A DNA stretch of 55,627 nucleotides from a bacterium (GCA_021795355.1 JAJYPL010000005.1:1-55627), one strand, 5' to 3'. Shown: positions 5,630 through 23,215, numbered from the stretch's first letter. Numbers and translations: made by a program. The notes: generated by a model from the letters alone, not told the origin.

Positions 5630-5705
5630 GAGCCGCTAGCTCAGCAGGTAGAGCACCTGACTTTTAATCAGGTGGTCGTGGGTTCGACTCCCGCGCGGCT
5701 CACCA
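5630..5705 (+). tRNA. tRNA-Lys (anticodon UUU)
   Basis: A complete cloverleaf: acceptor GAGCCGC pairs with GCGGCTC, the D-arm carries AGCTCAGCAGGTAGAGC, the anticodon loop CTTTTAA gives UUU, and the T-arm has GGTTCGACTCC. A CCA end is encoded. The part from the anticodon stem to the CCA is the attachment site of the mobile element that follows; the element leaves the gene intact. Confidence 0.96.
5655..5705 (+). repeat. attL: 51-bp direct repeat inside tRNA-Lys
   Basis: The 51 bases from the anticodon stem to the CCA of tRNA-Lys recur exactly at 11631-11681, in the same orientation. The bases on either side differ at the two copies, so the repeat ends are sharp. This is the signature of site-specific integration into a tRNA gene. 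Confidence 0.93.
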
Positions 5706-5798
5706 TTCAAAACCGCAGTAAATAAGCCCTTCCAGACCTTGACAATAAATTCTAAATAATGTATATTTTGTATAAAATGTATCATTTTTTATGTAAAA

Positions 5799-5817
5799 TT
5801 GTCCCAAAATTGTCCCA
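5799..5817 (+). repeat. Paired TTGTCCCA sites near attL (putative integrase arm sites)
   Basis: Two direct copies of TTGTCCCA lie 11 bases apart (5799-5806, 5810-5817), just before the integrase start. The same pair, with the same 11-base step and orientation, lies near attR at 11555-11573. Short repeated motifs at both ends of an element are typical of tyrosine integrase arm-binding sites. Being this close to the integrase start, bound protein could also repress the gene. Confidence 0.5.
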
Positions 5818-5832
5818 TAAAGGATATTAAAA

Positions 5833-6876
5833 ATGTCGGAAAATATCAGAAAAAGAAAGAATAGTAAATATTACTACTACGATATGATGATAGACGGCGT
5901 CCGGTATAAAGGAACAACCAAGACCGCCGACAAAAAACTCGCCGAACATATAGCCGATACTATAAAAGTAGATATACTCCGCAAAAAACATAGCTTGCCA
6001 AACCTTATAAATTACCGGTTTAAAGATGTTTGGGATAATTATATATCATCTCAATCTTTGTGTTTTAAAACTCAAGAGTCTAAAATAAATTCGGCAAAGC
6101 ATTTTTTACCGATTTTTAAAGATAAAGAGATATTGAGTATAACATCGGAGCAAATCGAAAGCTACCAACTAAAAAGAAAATCGGAAATTACGGCAAAAAG
6201 CAATAAAAGAGTGCAAGAAATATCCTTTAGGTCTGTAAATATTGAAATATCCGAATTAAATTATTTTTTTAATTACTGTATTAAAAAAGGATATATCGAA
6301 AAGAACCCAGCTTCCGGCATTAAAAAACTTAACGAACTCTCCCGGAATAAAAATTTATCCGACTCGGACATCGATAAACTAATCGCCGGAGCTACGAATA
6401 AGCTTACAATAGATTTAATAGCCTTTTTAATCTATACCGGTTGCCGGAAAGGCGAAGCGCTAAATCTTAAATGGGACGACGTGGATTTACAGAACGACGT
6501 CATAGCTATTAAGGCGACTAAAACTAAATATGACCGCTATATTCCTGTCAGCAAGCCATTAAAAGAGCTTTTAAACGGGATAGAAAAGAAAGACGACTGT
6601 TTATATGTATTTAACGATGACGGACGAAAATTAGGCGATTTTAAGCGTTCTTTTCATACAGCCTGCCGTAATGCCGGAATTAAGGATATGCACATTCACG
6701 ATTTAAGGCACGTCTTCGCAAGTAAAATGGTTAAGAACGGCACGTCGCTATTTATAACCGGCGAGCTGTTAGGACATAGGACGACGCAGATGACTAAACG
6801 TTATAGTCATTTAGTGCCGGAGACGCTTAAGAAGGCGGTTGACGATGTGTGGGGCAGAGATAATAAAAACGGTTAA
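5833..6876 (+). CDS. Tyrosine integrase (tRNA-Lys element)
   Basis: The product (347 residues) is a phage-type tyrosine recombinase. It has a short N-terminal arm-binding-like region (about 1-55), a SAM-like core-binding domain (60-165) and a catalytic domain. The catalytic set is complete: Arg205 (GCRKGEAL), Lys232, His289 and Arg292 (HDLRH), His315 (LLGHRTT) and the nucleophile Tyr324 (KRYSHL). It lies 128 bases inside attL and points into the element, the usual place for an integrase that uses the flanking tRNA. It should catalyse integration and, with help, excision. No excisionase was recognised. Confidence 0.93.
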   Translation: MSENIRKRKNSKYYYYDMMIDGVRYKGTTKTADKKLAEHIADTIKVDILRKKHSLPNLINYRFKDVWDNYISSQSLCFKTQESKINSAKHFLPIFKDKEILSITSEQIESYQLKRKSEITAKSNKRVQEISFRSVNIEISELNYFFNYCIKKGYIEKNPASGIKKLNELSRNKNLSDSDIDKLIAGATNKLTIDLIAFLIYTGCRKGEALNLKWDDVDLQNDVIAIKATKTKYDRYIPVSKPLKELLNGIEKKDDCLYVFNDDGRKLGDFKRSFHTACRNAGIKDMHIHDLRHVFASKMVKNGTSLFITGELLGHRTTQMTKRYSHLVPETLKKAVDDVWGRDNKNG

Positions 6877-6932
6877 TGGTTTTATACCTGATTGAAAAAT
6901 TAAAGCCTTTAAAACGCATTATACGAAGTTTT

Positions 6933-7298
6933 TTATCGTTCCATAGAAGCATTTTTTACTGTTCTTGCGATATAATCGTCAATATGACCCTTTTTTCTTG
7001 TTTGAATGCCGGGACTAAAAGACAATATAGCTTTTGCGATATCGTCAGATTTAAACCCTTTTAATAAAGCATATTTTGCCGCCTTAAAATCCAAAGCCGA
7101 TAAATCGCAGTCTTTACCGGCACTCGAATAAACCTTTCGGATATAAGCACTACAACCGATTTCAAGTTTTTTTTCTCCCAGCGTAGCGGGGGGTGTGTCA
7201 ATATGTCTTTTAGGCAGTTCGATATTATAAAAAAATATTTTAGCAGCAGCTGTAGGTTCGGATTTTGTTTTTTTAAAATACGAACCTACATAATATTC
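6933..7298 (-). pseudogene. C-terminal fragment of a plasmid primase-like protein
   Basis: On the minus strand an open frame from a TGA at 7299-7301 to a TAA at 6933-6935 encodes about 121 residues but has no usable start codon. Its last 60 residues look like real protein: LSALDFKAAKYALLKGF, then DDIAKAILSFSP and RKKGHIDDYIARTV. This resembles the tail of plasmid RepB-like primases and relaxase/primase fusions (S-P-x-R-K-x-G-H-x-x-D-Y-x-x-R-T-V). A hairpin sits in its upstream part, so coding beyond about 7250 is doubtful. Most likely the remnant of a lost replication or mobilisation gene. Family assignment is by motif memory only. Confidence 0.55.
7251..7290. repeat. 10-bp inverted repeat beside the origin
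   Basis: TGTAGGTTCG (7251-7260) is mirrored by CGAACCTACA (7281-7290) around a 20-base AT-rich loop. It lies between the primase-like remnant and the AT-rich run 7317-7350. It could be a protein site, a terminator for the old gene or part of the origin. Confidence 0.5.
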
Positions 7299-7316
7299 TC
7301 ACTTATGCTTTCTCTT

Positions 7317-7514
7317 TTCTTTTATATATATATACTTTCTATATACTTTATAGACATCCGCAAAGTATCGTAAATATTGAACTTGCGGGGTGCAAATATA
7401 CCTTTTCTAATGCCAATCGATACCTTTTCTAATGCCAAAAATGAGAGAAATATACCTTTTCTAATGCCAATCGATACCTTTTCTAATGCCAATCGATACC
7501 TTTTCTAATGCCAA
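7317..7514. other. Putative replication origin with iterons
   Basis: An AT-rich run of alternating TA (7317-7350) is followed by five exact copies of the 19-mer ATACCTTTTCTAATGCCAA starting at 7398, 7420, 7452, 7474 and 7496. Steps are 22, 32, 22 and 22 bases, that is two or three helical turns, so the copies face one side of the DNA. Together with the Rep_3-type initiator encoded beside it, this is the layout of an iteron plasmid origin. Confidence 0.8.
7398..7514 (+). repeat. Five 19-bp iterons
   Basis: Identical copies at 7398-7416, 7420-7438, 7452-7470, 7474-7492 and 7496-7514. Where the step is 22 the gap is the trinucleotide TCG. These are the likely binding sites of the Rep protein encoded at 7640-8629. 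Confidence 0.88.
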
Positions 7515-7525
7515 AAAATGCTTTT

Positions 7526-7646
7526 ATGATATCATATGATGATCATATGACTAATATGTAACGTTAGCGTAACGTAACAATAGCAATCGTTTTTGAGATT
7601 ATAGTTGTAACGTTAGAATAACGTAACAGTAACGTAACGTTAATAG
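7526..7646. repeat. Palindromes and GTAACGTTA repeats between iterons and rep
   Basis: ATGATATCAT and ATCATATGAT palindromes cluster at 7526-7550, the latter core repeated at an 11-base step. A 22-base repeat built from GTAACGTTAG and TAACGTAACA occurs at 7558-7579 and 7607-7628, differing at two positions. More TAACG units run into the rep stop codon. These may be extra Rep or host-factor sites. Confidence 0.6.
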
Positions 7647-8629
7647 AAAATATCATAAGGCGATGAGGTGCAGACTTGTCCTGTTCCGTCGTAGTCGTTC
7701 CACGCGTATCTGTCCCATGCCCTTTGCAGCCATTCAAAAATATCGATACTCCAATCTTTTTCCTTAAGATTATTAAAATCAGTTTTTCTGACTACCCAAT
7801 CCTGCATTTTTTCAATTTCTTTTTCGACGTCAAGTCCGTCGAATTCTGTTGAATACCATACTATATCGCCGAATTCGATTCCGTCAAATTTTAAGGTCGC
7901 GGGATTAAAAGTTATTTTTCTTGATAGTATCTTCTTTGACGTTCTTTTTATAAGAAAAGACAGTTTCACGACTTTATTGCCGGATTTTATTGTTTTATAT
8001 TCTGCCGAAATATCCGCGTTTTTAAGATTAATTTTATCTAAAATAGATTGTTTGATTTTTGAAAACGGCATTTTTTCGATATTGAGCAGTTTTTTGAAGT
8101 CATCTATTTTAATTATGTAAATAAAGCCTTGCTTACCGCCAAGAACAGATACGAAAACTTCATAGAGTTTCATATCGTATTTACTTCTTAAATTTAGAAT
8201 AATATTCAGCGGGTATGTCGTAAACTTTTGTTTTAAATTTAACAAATACGGCGCAAGCTTCGGATTCAGATTTATTTCGACAATTCCGCCGGAGCAGCCG
8301 GCATCGGTGAACCAGCTGTAAATTTTCCAATTTTTATTATCTCTAAACGATTCGATAGGTTTTTTAATAAAACTTTTCAATAAAATATTGAGATATGAAT
8401 AGTTTTCATCGCCCAGACCGATAATTTTTAAGAATTGCCGGGCGGGCATTATAAAAGGCTTTAGTTCATCGTCGTCCTTATAGATTTGGCTCAATACGAC
8501 GCCTAAAGTTTTTATCTGATCCGCAGACAAATCGCACCGGGTAAATATTAAATCGTTATCCTTTTTAATTACATTATTATTCTTCAAAGCTTTGTAGGTT
8601 TCCAACCCGTCATTCGTAATTACCGACAT
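7640..8629 (-). CDS. Plasmid replication initiator, Rep_3 (RepB) family
   Basis: This 329-residue protein resembles initiators of iteron plasmids (Rep_3 fold, two winged helices). The N-terminal half has the typical LIFTRCDLSADQIKTLGVVLS and LKSFIKKPIESF segments; a central LNLRSKYDMKLYEVF stretch is the conserved region that precedes the second winged-helix domain. It would bind the iterons 130-240 bases beyond its stop codon and open the origin. It is the last gene of a leftward operon, 40 bases after the small unknown gene. Family recognition is by pattern, without a search, but the iterons beside it support it strongly. Confidence 0.85.
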   Translation of the reverse strand: MSVITNDGLETYKALKNNNVIKKDNDLIFTRCDLSADQIKTLGVVLSQIYKDDDELKPFIMPARQFLKIIGLGDENYSYLNILLKSFIKKPIESFRDNKNWKIYSWFTDAGCSGGIVEINLNPKLAPYLLNLKQKFTTYPLNIILNLRSKYDMKLYEVFVSVLGGKQGFIYIIKIDDFKKLLNIEKMPFSKIKQSILDKINLKNADISAEYKTIKSGNKVVKLSFLIKRTSKKILSRKITFNPATLKFDGIEFGDIVWYSTEFDGLDVEKEIEKMQDWVVRKTDFNNLKEKDWSIDIFEWLQRAWDRYAWNDYDGTGQVCTSSPYDIFY

Positions 8630-8669
8630 ATTTTATCTCCCCTGCCGCTGTTTCCGGCATAAAATTATT

Positions 8670-9110
8670 TTAAAAATTAATTTTTTTAAAAATTTTAATA
8701 AAATAAGTTCTGCTCATATTTATTGAATATTTTTGCTGAACGTATTGCTGAAGTTCTGCATAATTTAAATTCCGTTCTTCTTTTATCTTGTAAAGCTTAG
8801 GCATTAGGCGCATTAAACGGTTTAATTTAGGCGATTCTTTTGATTTCCGGCGTAGTTTCTTGATATGGCTCTCGTATATCCCGACCGATTTATAATCGCC
8901 GTCGGTTAAAATCTGCCCGGTAGTCTTTTTGGATTGCGATTGCAGGGATAATAGATTTTCTACTTTAGATAAAGCCGTATTGACGGCATTATCTAAGACT
9001 ACGTCATCGATAATGCAGAGCTTGCCGGTAAGGCGCAGGACTTCCAAAAGCGCGGGGATTTTATCTTTTTTCTTTTTTAAGATTTTTTCTAATTTTTCCG
9101 TATTTATCAT
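8670..9110 (-). CDS. Small basic protein of the rep operon, unknown function
   Basis: The 146-residue, lysine-rich product is not recognised. The N-terminal 35 residues are very basic and helical (EKILKKKKDK). The C-terminal 45 residues (LNYAELQQYVQQKYSINMSRTYFIKIFKKI) look like a helix-turn-helix of the kind in plasmid-encoded DNA-binding proteins. Its start overlaps the stop of the upstream recombinase by four bases (ATGA), so translation is probably coupled. A DNA-binding role in copy control or mobilisation is a guess from position and charge. Confidence 0.7.
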   Translation of the reverse strand: MINTEKLEKILKKKKDKIPALLEVLRLTGKLCIIDDVVLDNAVNTALSKVENLLSLQSQSKKTTGQILTDGDYKSVGIYESHIKKLRRKSKESPKLNRLMRLMPKLYKIKEERNLNYAELQQYVQQKYSINMSRTYFIKIFKKINF

Positions 9111-10024
9111 TTTGAATACACTCCCGTTATGATTTCGTTCCTGTTATGACCAAGTTCTGCCGACGTCATATGCACGGCTTCGACGTGCGAATAGCCTTGA
9201 CTTTCAAATTGTTTAACTGTTTCGATTGCGTAATTATGCCTTAAAGAATGAATTGACCCGCTATCGCCCAAAACCGCCCTGATTTCATTGTTTATCTTAG
9301 CTCCCGTAACGACATCGCCTAATTTTTCGATATTATTCTCTTTCAAAAATGTTTTAATATCTGAAATTAAAGACTTGTCCGAAATTTCCGATACAATTCT
9401 ATCTTTCCCGCCTTTTGCGCCGATTATCTCAATCTTATTTTCTTTTAAATTACTAATAGATAATTTAAGAATTTCGGATTTGCGCAGTCCAGCCGATAAA
9501 GCACAACGGACGGCGAGATTGACTGCTTTATCATGAATTTTTAAAAGTTTATCAACATCGTTTTTAGAATATGCGCGGACATCGGCGTGCTGCATATCTT
9601 TTTGAACCTGCCTGTTGAAATTTTCGTTCAGCTTAAAATCATAGTTTCTATTTAAGTTATGATGTTCGGAATAGCGGTTTAAGGCGGTTTCGAGTTTATT
9701 TAATGCCGATTTTTCAAGCTGGAAAGTTTTATGCGCGATATTTTCGTCAATCCTGCTTTGCAAATAAGATTTAACCGCTTCGGCCGTAGTTTTAGTCAAA
9801 TCTTTTAATCCTGCATTTTCTTTTGCCCAGTTTGCAAATTTAACGACGCTTTCCCTATATGAATCGGCAGTCCTGTAACTATAAATACCCGTTTCTTTAG
9901 CTATACCAGCCGACCCGACTGCTCCGGCTTGCCGGGCATTATTTTTAGCTTCGTATTTAGAATTTCCGATTGCTTTTATCTCTTTGAAAACTTCCGTAAC
10001 CTGCCATTTTACTGAACCTTTCAT
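9107..10024 (-). CDS. Second tyrosine recombinase, coupled to rep
   Basis: The product (305 residues) has the tyrosine recombinase catalytic set: Arg181 (SAGLRKSEIL), Lys207 (GGKDR), His259 and Arg262 (SIHSLRH), His293 (ELGHNR) and Tyr303 three residues from the C-terminus. A helical core-binding domain spans about 50-145. The protein ends just after the tyrosine. It heads the leftward operon with rep, which suggests plasmid multimer resolution or inversion rather than integration, since the tRNA-proximal integrase already serves that. It starts at ATG with TAGGAGA upstream. Confidence 0.85.
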   Translation of the reverse strand: MKGSVKWQVTEVFKEIKAIGNSKYEAKNNARQAGAVGSAGIAKETGIYSYRTADSYRESVVKFANWAKENAGLKDLTKTTAEAVKSYLQSRIDENIAHKTFQLEKSALNKLETALNRYSEHHNLNRNYDFKLNENFNRQVQKDMQHADVRAYSKNDVDKLLKIHDKAVNLAVRCALSAGLRKSEILKLSISNLKENKIEIIGAKGGKDRIVSEISDKSLISDIKTFLKENNIEKLGDVVTGAKINNEIRAVLGDSGSIHSLRHNYAIETVKQFESQGYSHVEAVHMTSAELGHNRNEIITGVYSK

Positions 10025-10555
10025 AATATAAATCTCCTATTTTTTATTAAAATAACGATGTTTTAGACAAGACTGTCCATTTAAAGTTAAGAACAGAAAC
10101 TTTTTTTTACAACGTGTTTGTCGTTGTGTTTATTTTTTCTTAAAAATAAGAAAATCGCATAAACAACGCGCTAAGATTTTACTTTGAAAAATCAGATAAA
10201 GCTCTGACGAGCTGAAATTGTTTGGCGGCTTAAATCTTTTAAAAGCCTAAAATTTGTGATTGTTATTGCAGAAATGAACCGCAACAACGGAGTATGCAGT
10301 TTTTATAATATATTTTTTGAATAAGAAGTTTCCCGAATAAAGCACGGGCGTTATAGGATGCAAATCTTTCTTTCCCCCCGTTTTATCGGGGTTGTGGGAA
10401 TATGTCCGGAGTTGAGATTTGCGCAGGGCGGCATGTATAGGAAAAATACGAACCGCCAAAAGATAATTTCCCAAAAAAAGATAAAGATATTCCTATACCT
10501 AAGGCATAAACGAATATAAGTTTAAATTTTAAAGGATTTTTTTAAGTAATTGGAT

Positions 10556-10735
10556 TTTTAGACAAGACTGCCATAAGGAATCAACGGTCGCTTCCGTTCA
10601 GGTAGTTAAGGTAAGACGAGAGTGCGAATATCTCGAATGAAACAAAATTATGTGCTTACACACGCTCATAAGACAGGGAAAATGTAAGTTTTACCCCTGA
10701 ATTTGTTCTAATCACGAGTTGTTTTGTGATTGGAT
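10556..10735 (+). ncRNA. Possible structured RNA of the element
   Basis: Five consecutive short hairpins occur within 150 bases: AACGG/CCGTT (10583-10598), CGAGA/TCTCG (10617-10635), TTATG/CATAA (10648-10671), CAGGGAAAA/TTTTACCCCTG (10674-10699, two-base bulge) and AATCAC/GTGATT (10710-10731). Loops are small and spacers short. Protein-coding potential is absent on both strands. Orientation cannot be decided; plus is chosen arbitrarily. It could be an antisense copy-control RNA or another regulatory RNA. Confidence 0.3.
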
Positions 10736-10886
10736 ATGCAAGTCGTATATTTTTTAAATTATCTCAAGCATTCGCCTGAAAAAATAATCTAAAAAAATAC
10801 ACCGCACGCTATTAATAATTTTATTATAGCATATAAAAATATCTTGTCAAGTATTTTTTGTAGCTTTATTGTTTTTTATCGCTTAC

Positions 10887-10934
10887 GGCTCTGTTTGTAT
10901 TTAATTCGCTTCGCTCTTAAATACAAACAGAGCC
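10887..10934. repeat. Perfect 18-bp inverted repeat (hairpin)
   Basis: Arm GGCTCTGTTTGTATTTAA (10887-10904) pairs exactly with 10917-10934 around a 12-base loop TTCGCTTCGCTC. A strong hairpin, possibly a terminator or a palindromic repeat unit; no clear T-run follows on either strand. Confidence 0.7.
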
Positions 10935-11116
10935 TACGTTTACGGACATTTCAGAATTAAAATAAAATTTGTAATAGTGTCGGAGAGAGTGTCATAATGT
11001 TGTGGTTTTTGCTTGCTTCGTCCGCTGTTTTTTCTTGCTCCGTTTTTTGCCTGACGGCAAAAACTCCGGCGAAAAAAGAGCGCAGACTACGGCGCAAAAA
11101 CTTTTAAGTGCATTAT

Positions 11117-11154
11117 TAAGGGGGCTCGCTTTGCCGACAAAGCTATCCCCCCTT
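11117..11154. repeat. GC-rich nested hairpin
   Basis: TAAGGGGG (11117-11124) faces CCCCCCTTA (11146-11154), enclosing an inner stem GCTTTG/CAAAGC with a four-base loop. It stands out from the AT-rich surroundings and resembles a REP-like unit. Confidence 0.5.
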
Positions 11155-11216
11155 AGACCCCCAAGAAATCGGGAATGGGGTAAAAACCTTTTTTGATTTT
11201 TCTTTTTAAAAAACTT

Positions 11217-11225
11217 TGGTATAAT
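11217..11225 (+). promoter_or_regulatory. Extended -10 promoter of the coiled-coil gene
   Basis: TGGTATAAT gives a perfect -10 (11220-11225) with the extended TG motif, about 38 bases before the start codon. No well-spaced -35 is seen, as is common with extended -10 promoters. Confidence 0.45.
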
Positions 11226-11262
11226 AACATTGTTAATTAATTTAATTAGGGGGTAAAAGTCT

Positions 11263-11544
11263 ATGGCGTCAGTTATTGTTTTGCCGGAAGCTTTGATTAA
11301 AAATACAAATAAAGAAGAGCAGAAGGAACTTGCCGAGTTTTTTAACGGAATTAGTAAATCGGCAAGCGAAGCAACTATTTTGACCGTAGAAGAAAAGTTT
11401 GAAAGACGCTTAACGGAAGAAATATCTAAAGTTAATACAAGAATTTCAGAAACAAAAACCGATATTATTAAATGGATGTTTATATTCTGGGTAGGACAGA
11501 TAGGCGTATTAGTGGCTATCTTAAGTCTGTTTTTTAAACATTAA
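11263..11544 (+). CDS. Membrane-anchored coiled-coil protein (DUF1640-like)
   Basis: The 93-residue product has a polar N-terminal half, a heptad-rich stretch (about 40-68, EEKFERRLTEEISKVNTRI) and one membrane helix at the C-terminus (WMFIFWVGQIGVLVAILSL). The pattern resembles small DUF1640-type coiled-coil proteins common in proteobacteria. A strong ribosome site AGGGGG precedes the ATG. It is the only clear gene in the right part of the element and the sole candidate cargo. Function unknown; membrane association and oligomerisation are inferred. Confidence 0.75.
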   Translation: MASVIVLPEALIKNTNKEEQKELAEFFNGISKSASEATILTVEEKFERRLTEEISKVNTRISETKTDIIKWMFIFWVGQIGVLVAILSLFFKH

Positions 11545-11554
11545 AAAATTGCTT

Positions 11555-11573
11555 TTGTCCCAAATTTGTCCCA
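11555..11573 (+). repeat. Paired TTGTCCCA sites near attR (putative integrase arm sites)
   Basis: Two direct copies of TTGTCCCA (11555-11562, 11566-11573) at an 11-base step match the pair near attL. They lie about 58 bases inside attR. Confidence 0.5.
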
Positions 11574-11592
11574 TAGCATTTTTTATAAAGAA

Positions 11593-11620
11593 AATAACTT
11601 AATAATATTAATAAGTTATT
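11593..11620. repeat. 9-bp hairpin beside attR
   Basis: AATAACTTA (11593-11601) pairs with TAAGTTATT (11612-11620) around a ten-base AT loop, ten bases before attR. It may end transcription of the coiled-coil gene or bind a recombination protein. Confidence 0.45.
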
Positions 11621-11630
11621 GTATGTAATA

Positions 11631-11681
11631 ACCTGACTTTTAATCAGGTGGTCGTGGGTTCGACTCCCGCGCGGCTCACCA
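11631..11681 (+). repeat. attR: 51-bp copy of the tRNA-Lys 3' part
   Basis: An exact copy of 5655-5705. It starts in the anticodon stem and ends with the encoded CCA. It lacks acceptor 5' strand and D-arm, so it is not a functional tRNA; it marks the right junction of the element. Confidence 0.93.
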
Positions 11682-11785
11682 CTTAAAACTACAGCAGATA
11701 AATATATTACGACATTTCTTTATGCATAAATAGACAGCTAAGACCGCTTATAAGTATTGCAAAATGTAATAATTATCGAGATATT

Positions 11786-22819: not shown

Positions 22820-23215
<396 letters not shown>

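Follow-up and report, generated by a model that had tools for sequence, protein, structure and literature searches.

A probable integrated plasmid-type element at a tRNA-Lys gene and its sister elements across a bacterial order

An integrated element at a tRNA-Lys gene

The window analyzed here is a 55,627-nucleotide stretch of bacterial DNA (GCA_021795355.1, JAJYPL010000005.1:1-55627) from a 66%-complete metagenome bin. It holds a 5,976-bp element lying between two exact 51-bp copies of the 3' end of a tRNA-Lys(TTT) gene, which is probably an integrated plasmid-type element (an integrative replicon) and a member of a lineage family of elements that target tRNA genes. This interpretation rests on the attachment (att) repeats, the empty sites in relatives, the identity of the replication initiator (Rep) and its iterons, a collinear sister element in another genome of the same order (G002) and paired terminal motifs, and also on a truncated primase and a second recombinase that keeps its candidate catalytic residues. 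The family is common in the lineage, and the window copy is not a rare minimal plasmid.

The integration target was identified at 5630-5705 on the plus strand (ARAGORN; Rfam tRNA, 72 bits). Its last 51 bp form the left att copy (5655-5705, plus strand), and a repeat search placed the exact right copy at 11631-11681 on the same strand, so that the 6-kb element between tRNA-Lys repeats proposed in a preliminary description of this DNA was recovered as described. These are the sole two copies in the genome assembly with 3 mismatches allowed, and an exact 51-bp match present just twice rules out a chance repeat. Similarity extends ~20 bp past the repeat (71 nt at 92%). The G+C content of the element (34.7%) is like that of its flanks (35-36%), and composition therefore gives no sign of foreign origin. 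Relaxase, partition and phage structural genes were absent from the element open reading frames (ORFs) scanned with Pfam and other profile libraries, which agrees with the same description; neither packaging nor capsid-hijacking genes were seen in these profile scans, and no origin of transfer (oriT) was recognized in the element.

With the downstream GGDEF gene as a guide, we looked for this insertion site across 30 genomes of the order. The empty site that one would look for in relatives is present in two of them (G012 and G017), where an uninterrupted tRNA-Lys gene runs directly into the same GGDEF flank; the contigs begin 3 and 48 bp before the tRNA, and the upstream side falls outside them. 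In G024 the contigs break at a right end that matches the window's at 97%. In G021 an insertion closes with a window-like right end, and another element comes after it. In G016, partial tRNA copies are followed by an unrelated left end, as stacked elements would give. In relatives this flank is either empty or holds something else, so the tRNA-Lys site is an insertion hot spot; conservation of the 6 kb in position, which would have spoken against an element, was not found. A core chromosomal locus was ruled out on the same grounds.

Just beyond the two att copies, 5706-5744 and 11682-11701 are similar over ~20 bp, and in three sisters (L087, L090 and L107) the beginning of the element's left end also turns up beside other tRNA targets. 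The host flank may contain a scar left by an earlier element. Elsewhere in the window (22891-23215), a 134-bp unit is present in 2.4 perfect copies, each opening with the last 18-19 bp of a tRNA-Ser gene (22820-22908), and these units resemble the scars of repeated integration into another tRNA gene.

Replication initiator and iterons

The element carries a plasmid-type replication gene together with origin features. Specifically, a 329-aa Rep_3-type initiator (7640-8629, minus strand) has both Rep_3 domains (PF01051, Rep3_N, 3.5e-26; PF21205, Rep3_C, 3.1e-5) and matches F-plasmid RepE (PDB 1rep, 1.8e-11), so its kinship to plasmid initiators stood up to the homology search. Five 22-bp iterons (ATACCTTTTCTAATGCCAA + 3) were detected by tandem-repeat search, starting at 7398, 7420, 7452, 7474 and 7496 (7398-7441 and 7452-7517). 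They lie directly downstream of rep, as do the iterons of G002, and read in the Rep direction the iteron is GGCATTAGAAAAGGTATCGATT in the window and GACATTATAAAACTTGCCTATA in G002; the two Rep proteins are 48% identical. Across the 30 genomes, paired CATTANAAAA cores at a 22-bp period were found only in the window, in G002 and at one low-complexity AT-rich site (G007), with 0 matches in the reversed control. The common core, common position and differing spacers fit a Rep and iterons that evolved together. A second repeat set, GTAACGT at 7558, 7569, 7607 and 7629, occupies 7557-7642.

Integrase and terminal arm-like sites

The 347-aa tyrosine integrase (5833-6876, plus strand; PF00589, Phage_integrase, 3.2e-27; phrog_1, 4.9e-61) is encoded in the direction away from tRNA-Lys. 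Profile matches and 22-bp repeats together bear out the combination of integrase, iterons and Rep_3-type initiator noted in the preliminary description. Sister integrases beside other tRNA genes share 64-76% identity with that of the window. Among 14 integrases beside Lys, Ala, Phe, Arg, Pro, Leu, Gly and Val tRNAs, mean identity was 83% in the catalytic part, compared with 46% in the N-terminal and 51% in the core-binding part. Synonymous identity was barely higher in the catalytic half (0.55 vs. 0.50 in the other half), so differing selection accounts for most of this two-part pattern, and recombination was rejected as its main source.

Close to each end of the element, a motif search found a pair of sites of the form TTGTCCCA-nnn-TTGTCCCA on the plus strand, at 5799-5817 (starts 5799 and 5810) on the left and at 11555-11573 (starts 11555 and 11566) on the right. 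The spacing is 11 bp at each end, and the motif has a single further occurrence in the window. The pair pattern was present in 19/30 genomes of the order and absent from the reversed control. In the window and G002 elements such pairs are present at either end, and the tRNA-Leu element of G004 has one at its left end; in these two sisters the N-terminal domain of the integrase is 77% like that of the window. Scanned elements with N-terminal domains at 31-46% had no paired sites, and G013 (73%) and G009 (66%) had single, unpaired matches only. Their position at the ends, and their co-occurrence with one type of integrase N-terminal domain, suggest that the pairs are arm-binding sites of the integrase.

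Sister elements across the order

Elsewhere in the order, sister elements occupy tRNA-Ala, Phe, Pro, Leu, Gly, Val and other genes, and they share the integrase, a second recombinase, a 146-aa protein and a primase; the suggestion that the window holds an uncommon, minimal kind of integrative plasmid thus did not survive the comparison. The G002 sister (L011) lies in a tRNA-Ala gene between 51-bp repeats spaced 14.3 kb from each other, and has the gene order of the window element and matching right-end DNA. Identity between the two was 70% for recombinase 2, 79% for the 146-aa protein, 74% for the integrase and, as above, 48% for Rep_3. G002 also carries an excisionase-like gene of the HTH_17 family, a complete RepB'-like primase (PF16793 + PF22448) and, between primase and integrase, a cargo of a type II restriction-modification pair and a PDC-S46 candidate defence gene (L011, 11540-15383). 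The same interval is empty in the window.

Further elements are bounded by 45-49-bp repeats in tRNA-Ala (G009, 7.1 kb), in tRNA-Phe of the window's own genome (10.5 kb) and in tRNA-Pro (G008, 13.4 kb). Rep_3 occupies the slot between the 146-aa protein and the primase in the window and G002; in G009 (by Pfam) and G004 (by position and resemblance) a DUF3987 helicase-like protein is found there. In G013, helicase-like and initiator-like genes precede the primase; from their sequences they can be read as RepA/RepC-like, with Rep3_N reaching just 1.6e-4 there. The window's genome also contains two larger elements with related integrases, near tRNA-Leu/Phe (G000:C13, L013) and at tRNA-Phe (G000:C51, L012). 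They carry TrbL/VirB6-like genes and relaxase-like genes (MobA/VirD2-like, weak and below the Pfam cut-off); one has its own Rep_3 and the other a PF03090 replicase.

Probable reduction of the window copy

Between the iterons and the integrase lies a 121-codon open stretch with no ATG or GTG start, and a RepB'-like primase remnant, consisting in frame of C-terminal residues ~208-301 only, was recognized at 6936-7217 on the minus strand (PF22448, 4.9e-15 over 6933-7094; alignment). Just the last third of the primase is left and its catalytic part is gone, whereas G002, G009, G004 and G013 have it at full length. The HTH_17 excisionase-like gene found in L011, L075, L078 and L086 is also missing from the window element, which has 41 bp between the 146-aa ORF and rep where G002 has that gene. 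Another sister, L074, likewise has no detectable helix-turn-helix (HTH) gene. The "full replication unit" of the preliminary description could not be upheld, and with these two parts missing the window copy is best read as a reduced member of the family when set beside its G002 sister. Its mobility may be impaired, or may rely on co-resident relatives.

The RepB'-like primase is split at residue ~190-235 in three sister elements (among L079, L085, L088 and L090), and in L090, as in the window, the C-terminal part alone was seen. Possibly the helical C-terminal domain of the primase is retained by itself.

Second recombinase, 146-aa protein and structured leader

Recombinase 2, the 146-aa protein and, last, Rep are encoded in one gene block on the minus strand. 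The 305-aa recombinase 2 (9107-10024; TIGR02224, 1.3e-13, and alignment) is a tyrosine recombinase with 70-80% identity across the family, and its candidate catalytic residues R181, K207, H259, R262, H293 and Y303 are invariant in the alignment. The ORF of the 146-aa protein (8670-9110) overlaps that of recombinase 2 by 4 bp and is conserved at 49-79% identity in 7 relatives. The protein had no confident family match in the profile libraries and no structure match in the PDB, and its AlphaFold model is weak (predicted local distance difference test, pLDDT, 69; predicted template modelling score, pTM, 0.34).

Upstream of recombinase 2, ~500 nt (10030-10550, minus strand) are conserved among family members despite being noncoding, and conservation, folding and covariation point to a structured leader. 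Folding relative to shuffled sequences gave a z-score of -4.1 on the recombinase-sense strand and -1.5 on the other. One stem varies as CCCCG/CGGGG to CGCCT/AGGCG, CGCAAGC/GCTTGCG and CCCT/AGGG, and double changes occur at 14/43 consensus pairs, on a rough alignment with a small RNAalifold covariation term (-0.28). A leader model found 14 copies in 10 genomes, most of them next to recombinase 2, whole or in large part. Two copies lie beside recombinase-2 fragments (G004 C49 and G028 C19), and two or three lie near contig ends with no recombinase on the available piece (G004 C66, G001 C19 and G008 C3); no recombinase was found on the 7.2-kb contig that holds a further copy (G004 C14). No convincing Rfam family matched the leader, which is a candidate for an undescribed structured RNA. 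We know of no description of a cassette of recombinase 2 and 146-aa protein with a structured leader for cryptic RepB'-primase elements.

Two other features lie near the right end. A strong hairpin at 11117-11190 (GGGGG..GCTTTG tcgg CAAAGC..CCCCC), with stems that vary and covary, is common to several integrated elements of both classes (L011, L013, L074, L085, L090 and L110) and is possibly a terminator or a transfer-origin-like site. A 93-aa coiled-coil, probable membrane protein (CCDC90-like, below cut-off) was found by profile search at 11263-11544 on the plus strand. The preliminary description had mentioned neither this ORF nor recombinase 2, the 146-aa ORF, the primase remnant or the terminal arm-like sites.

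Possible mechanism and alternative explanations

The att repeats and empty sites argue for integration at tRNA-Lys, and the recombination act can be pictured from them. The circular form would carry a 51-bp identity to the tRNA-Lys 3' end, and recombination by the integrase between this identity and the chromosomal gene would result in one whole tRNA gene plus a second copy of its 3' end. After excision, Rep_3 would bind the five iterons just downstream of its own gene and, by homology, would initiate theta replication with host helicase and primase, the latter presumably standing in for the lost RepB'-like primase. Recombinase 2 and the 146-aa protein might resolve multimers or assist excision. 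Excision, and replication after it, are plausible.

Several observations weigh against this interpretation. The primase core and the HTH_17 gene are missing from the window element; no attP or circular junction was found in the assembly or in an IMG/VR scan, and no free plasmid was seen. Specifically, ten short contigs from the assemblies were checked for exact end overlap and none was circular. The lack of a free form in the assembly says little, considering that the bin is 66% complete. Read depths taken from contig names were close for element and chromosomal contigs of the same bins (8.76 vs. 8.98 and 6.05 vs. 5.95) but were not used as proof, since binning itself selects for equal depth. 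Close relatives were also lacking in the plasmid, phage and viral collections searched, and Rep as a query had no relatives in a first scan of the genome collection.

It is possible, if somewhat doubtful, that the element is an immobile relic, once mobile but now fixed in tRNA-Lys and unable to excise or fully replicate. The primase cut down to residues ~208-301, the single integrated copy in the assembly and the absence of an HTH_17 gene known from four sisters would all suit a relic, but the last of these also holds for L074, the att copies are identical and the iterons near-identical, and four genes (those of the integrase, Rep, recombinase 2 and the 146-aa protein) remain intact, their conserved residues in place. 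Movement in trans, as an island mobilized by the relaxases of co-resident elements with related integrases, seems unlikely to us. The relaxase-like and TrbL/VirB6-like genes of L013 and L012 offer a source of such help, and the covarying hairpin is common to the window, L013 and other elements; yet this hairpin could be a terminator and was not found in the relaxase-like-bearing L012, and the element has no recognized oriT. We can only speculate that the C13 and C51 elements could in principle help the window element move. Least probable, in our estimate, is a phage satellite of the P4 or phage-inducible chromosomal island (PICI) sort, packaged by a helper phage. The best match of the integrase is indeed a phage integrase family (phrog_1), and G002 combines an excisionase-like HTH gene and a primase with restriction-modification and the PDC-S46 gene. 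However, no packaging, capsid-size or regulator genes were seen, Rep, recombinase 2 and the 146-aa protein had no relatives in IMG/VR by pattern scans, and the integrase relatives there reach 23-32% identity only.

Beyond an integrative replicon, the family might represent a distinct class of tRNA-hopping replicons, a proposal that we put forward tentatively and hold to be rather unlikely. Such a class would have a constant core, namely a structured RNA leader of an undescribed kind, recombinase 2 and the 146-aa protein, with exchangeable replication modules (Rep_3 with iterons, a DUF3987 helicase-like protein or RepA/RepC-like genes) placed before a RepB'-type primase. In its integrase, a fast-evolving DNA-binding half, fused to a conserved catalytic half, would redirect the protein from one tRNA gene to another.

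Comparison with known systems and implications

Precedents for this general kind of element exist in cryptic tRNA-integrated elements with RepB'-type primases, in integrative plasmids and in Rep_3-bearing islands. Like the cryptic tRNA-integrated elements with PrimPol-PV1/RepB'-type primases (Kazlauskas et al. 2018, PMC5862659), the window element combines att repeats in a tRNA gene, a tyrosine integrase and replication genes with no conjugation or phage genes, and its sisters encode a RepB'-type primase (PF16793 + PF22448); it differs in lacking the primase core and relying on Rep_3 and iterons. The 11.2-kb integrative plasmid pHS87b of Pseudomonas aeruginosa, for which free and integrated forms were shown experimentally, uses a 45-bp tRNA 3'-end att site (PMC4739549). 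The window element is similarly small and sits at such a site, but pHS87b has no recognized replication gene, whereas the window element has Rep_3 and iterons and is known from its integrated form alone. A tyrosine integrase with Rep_3 is also found in the integrative and mobilizable elements SGI1 and BcenGI2, the latter in tRNA-Ala, where Rep_3 is thought to maintain the excised element (PMC5704250); those have a mobilization module, and none was found in the window element.

With regard to replication, the family has a RepB'-type primase in common with the RepA-RepB'-RepC module of the IncQ plasmid RSF1010, most visibly in G013 with its helicase-like and initiator-like genes ahead of the primase. 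The window element departs from RSF1010 in having Rep_3, in lacking a helicase gene and in keeping just the C-terminus of the primase. Its Rep resembles the F-plasmid RepE family (PDB 1rep) in its Rep3_N/Rep3_C winged helices and its link to iterons, but here the iterons lie downstream of rep, between rep and the primase position.

The host appears to belong to an uncultured acid-mine lineage, Candidatus Acidulodesulfobacterales, judging by MAG-name style, low G+C and what is known of acid-mine-drainage genomes. For this lineage, the elements map tRNA integration sites together with the integrases that match them, and the compact Rep_3 origin could seed a genetic tool. The family is a natural series for how one integrase family retargets among tRNA genes, and the window element illustrates how integrated replicons lose parts in place.

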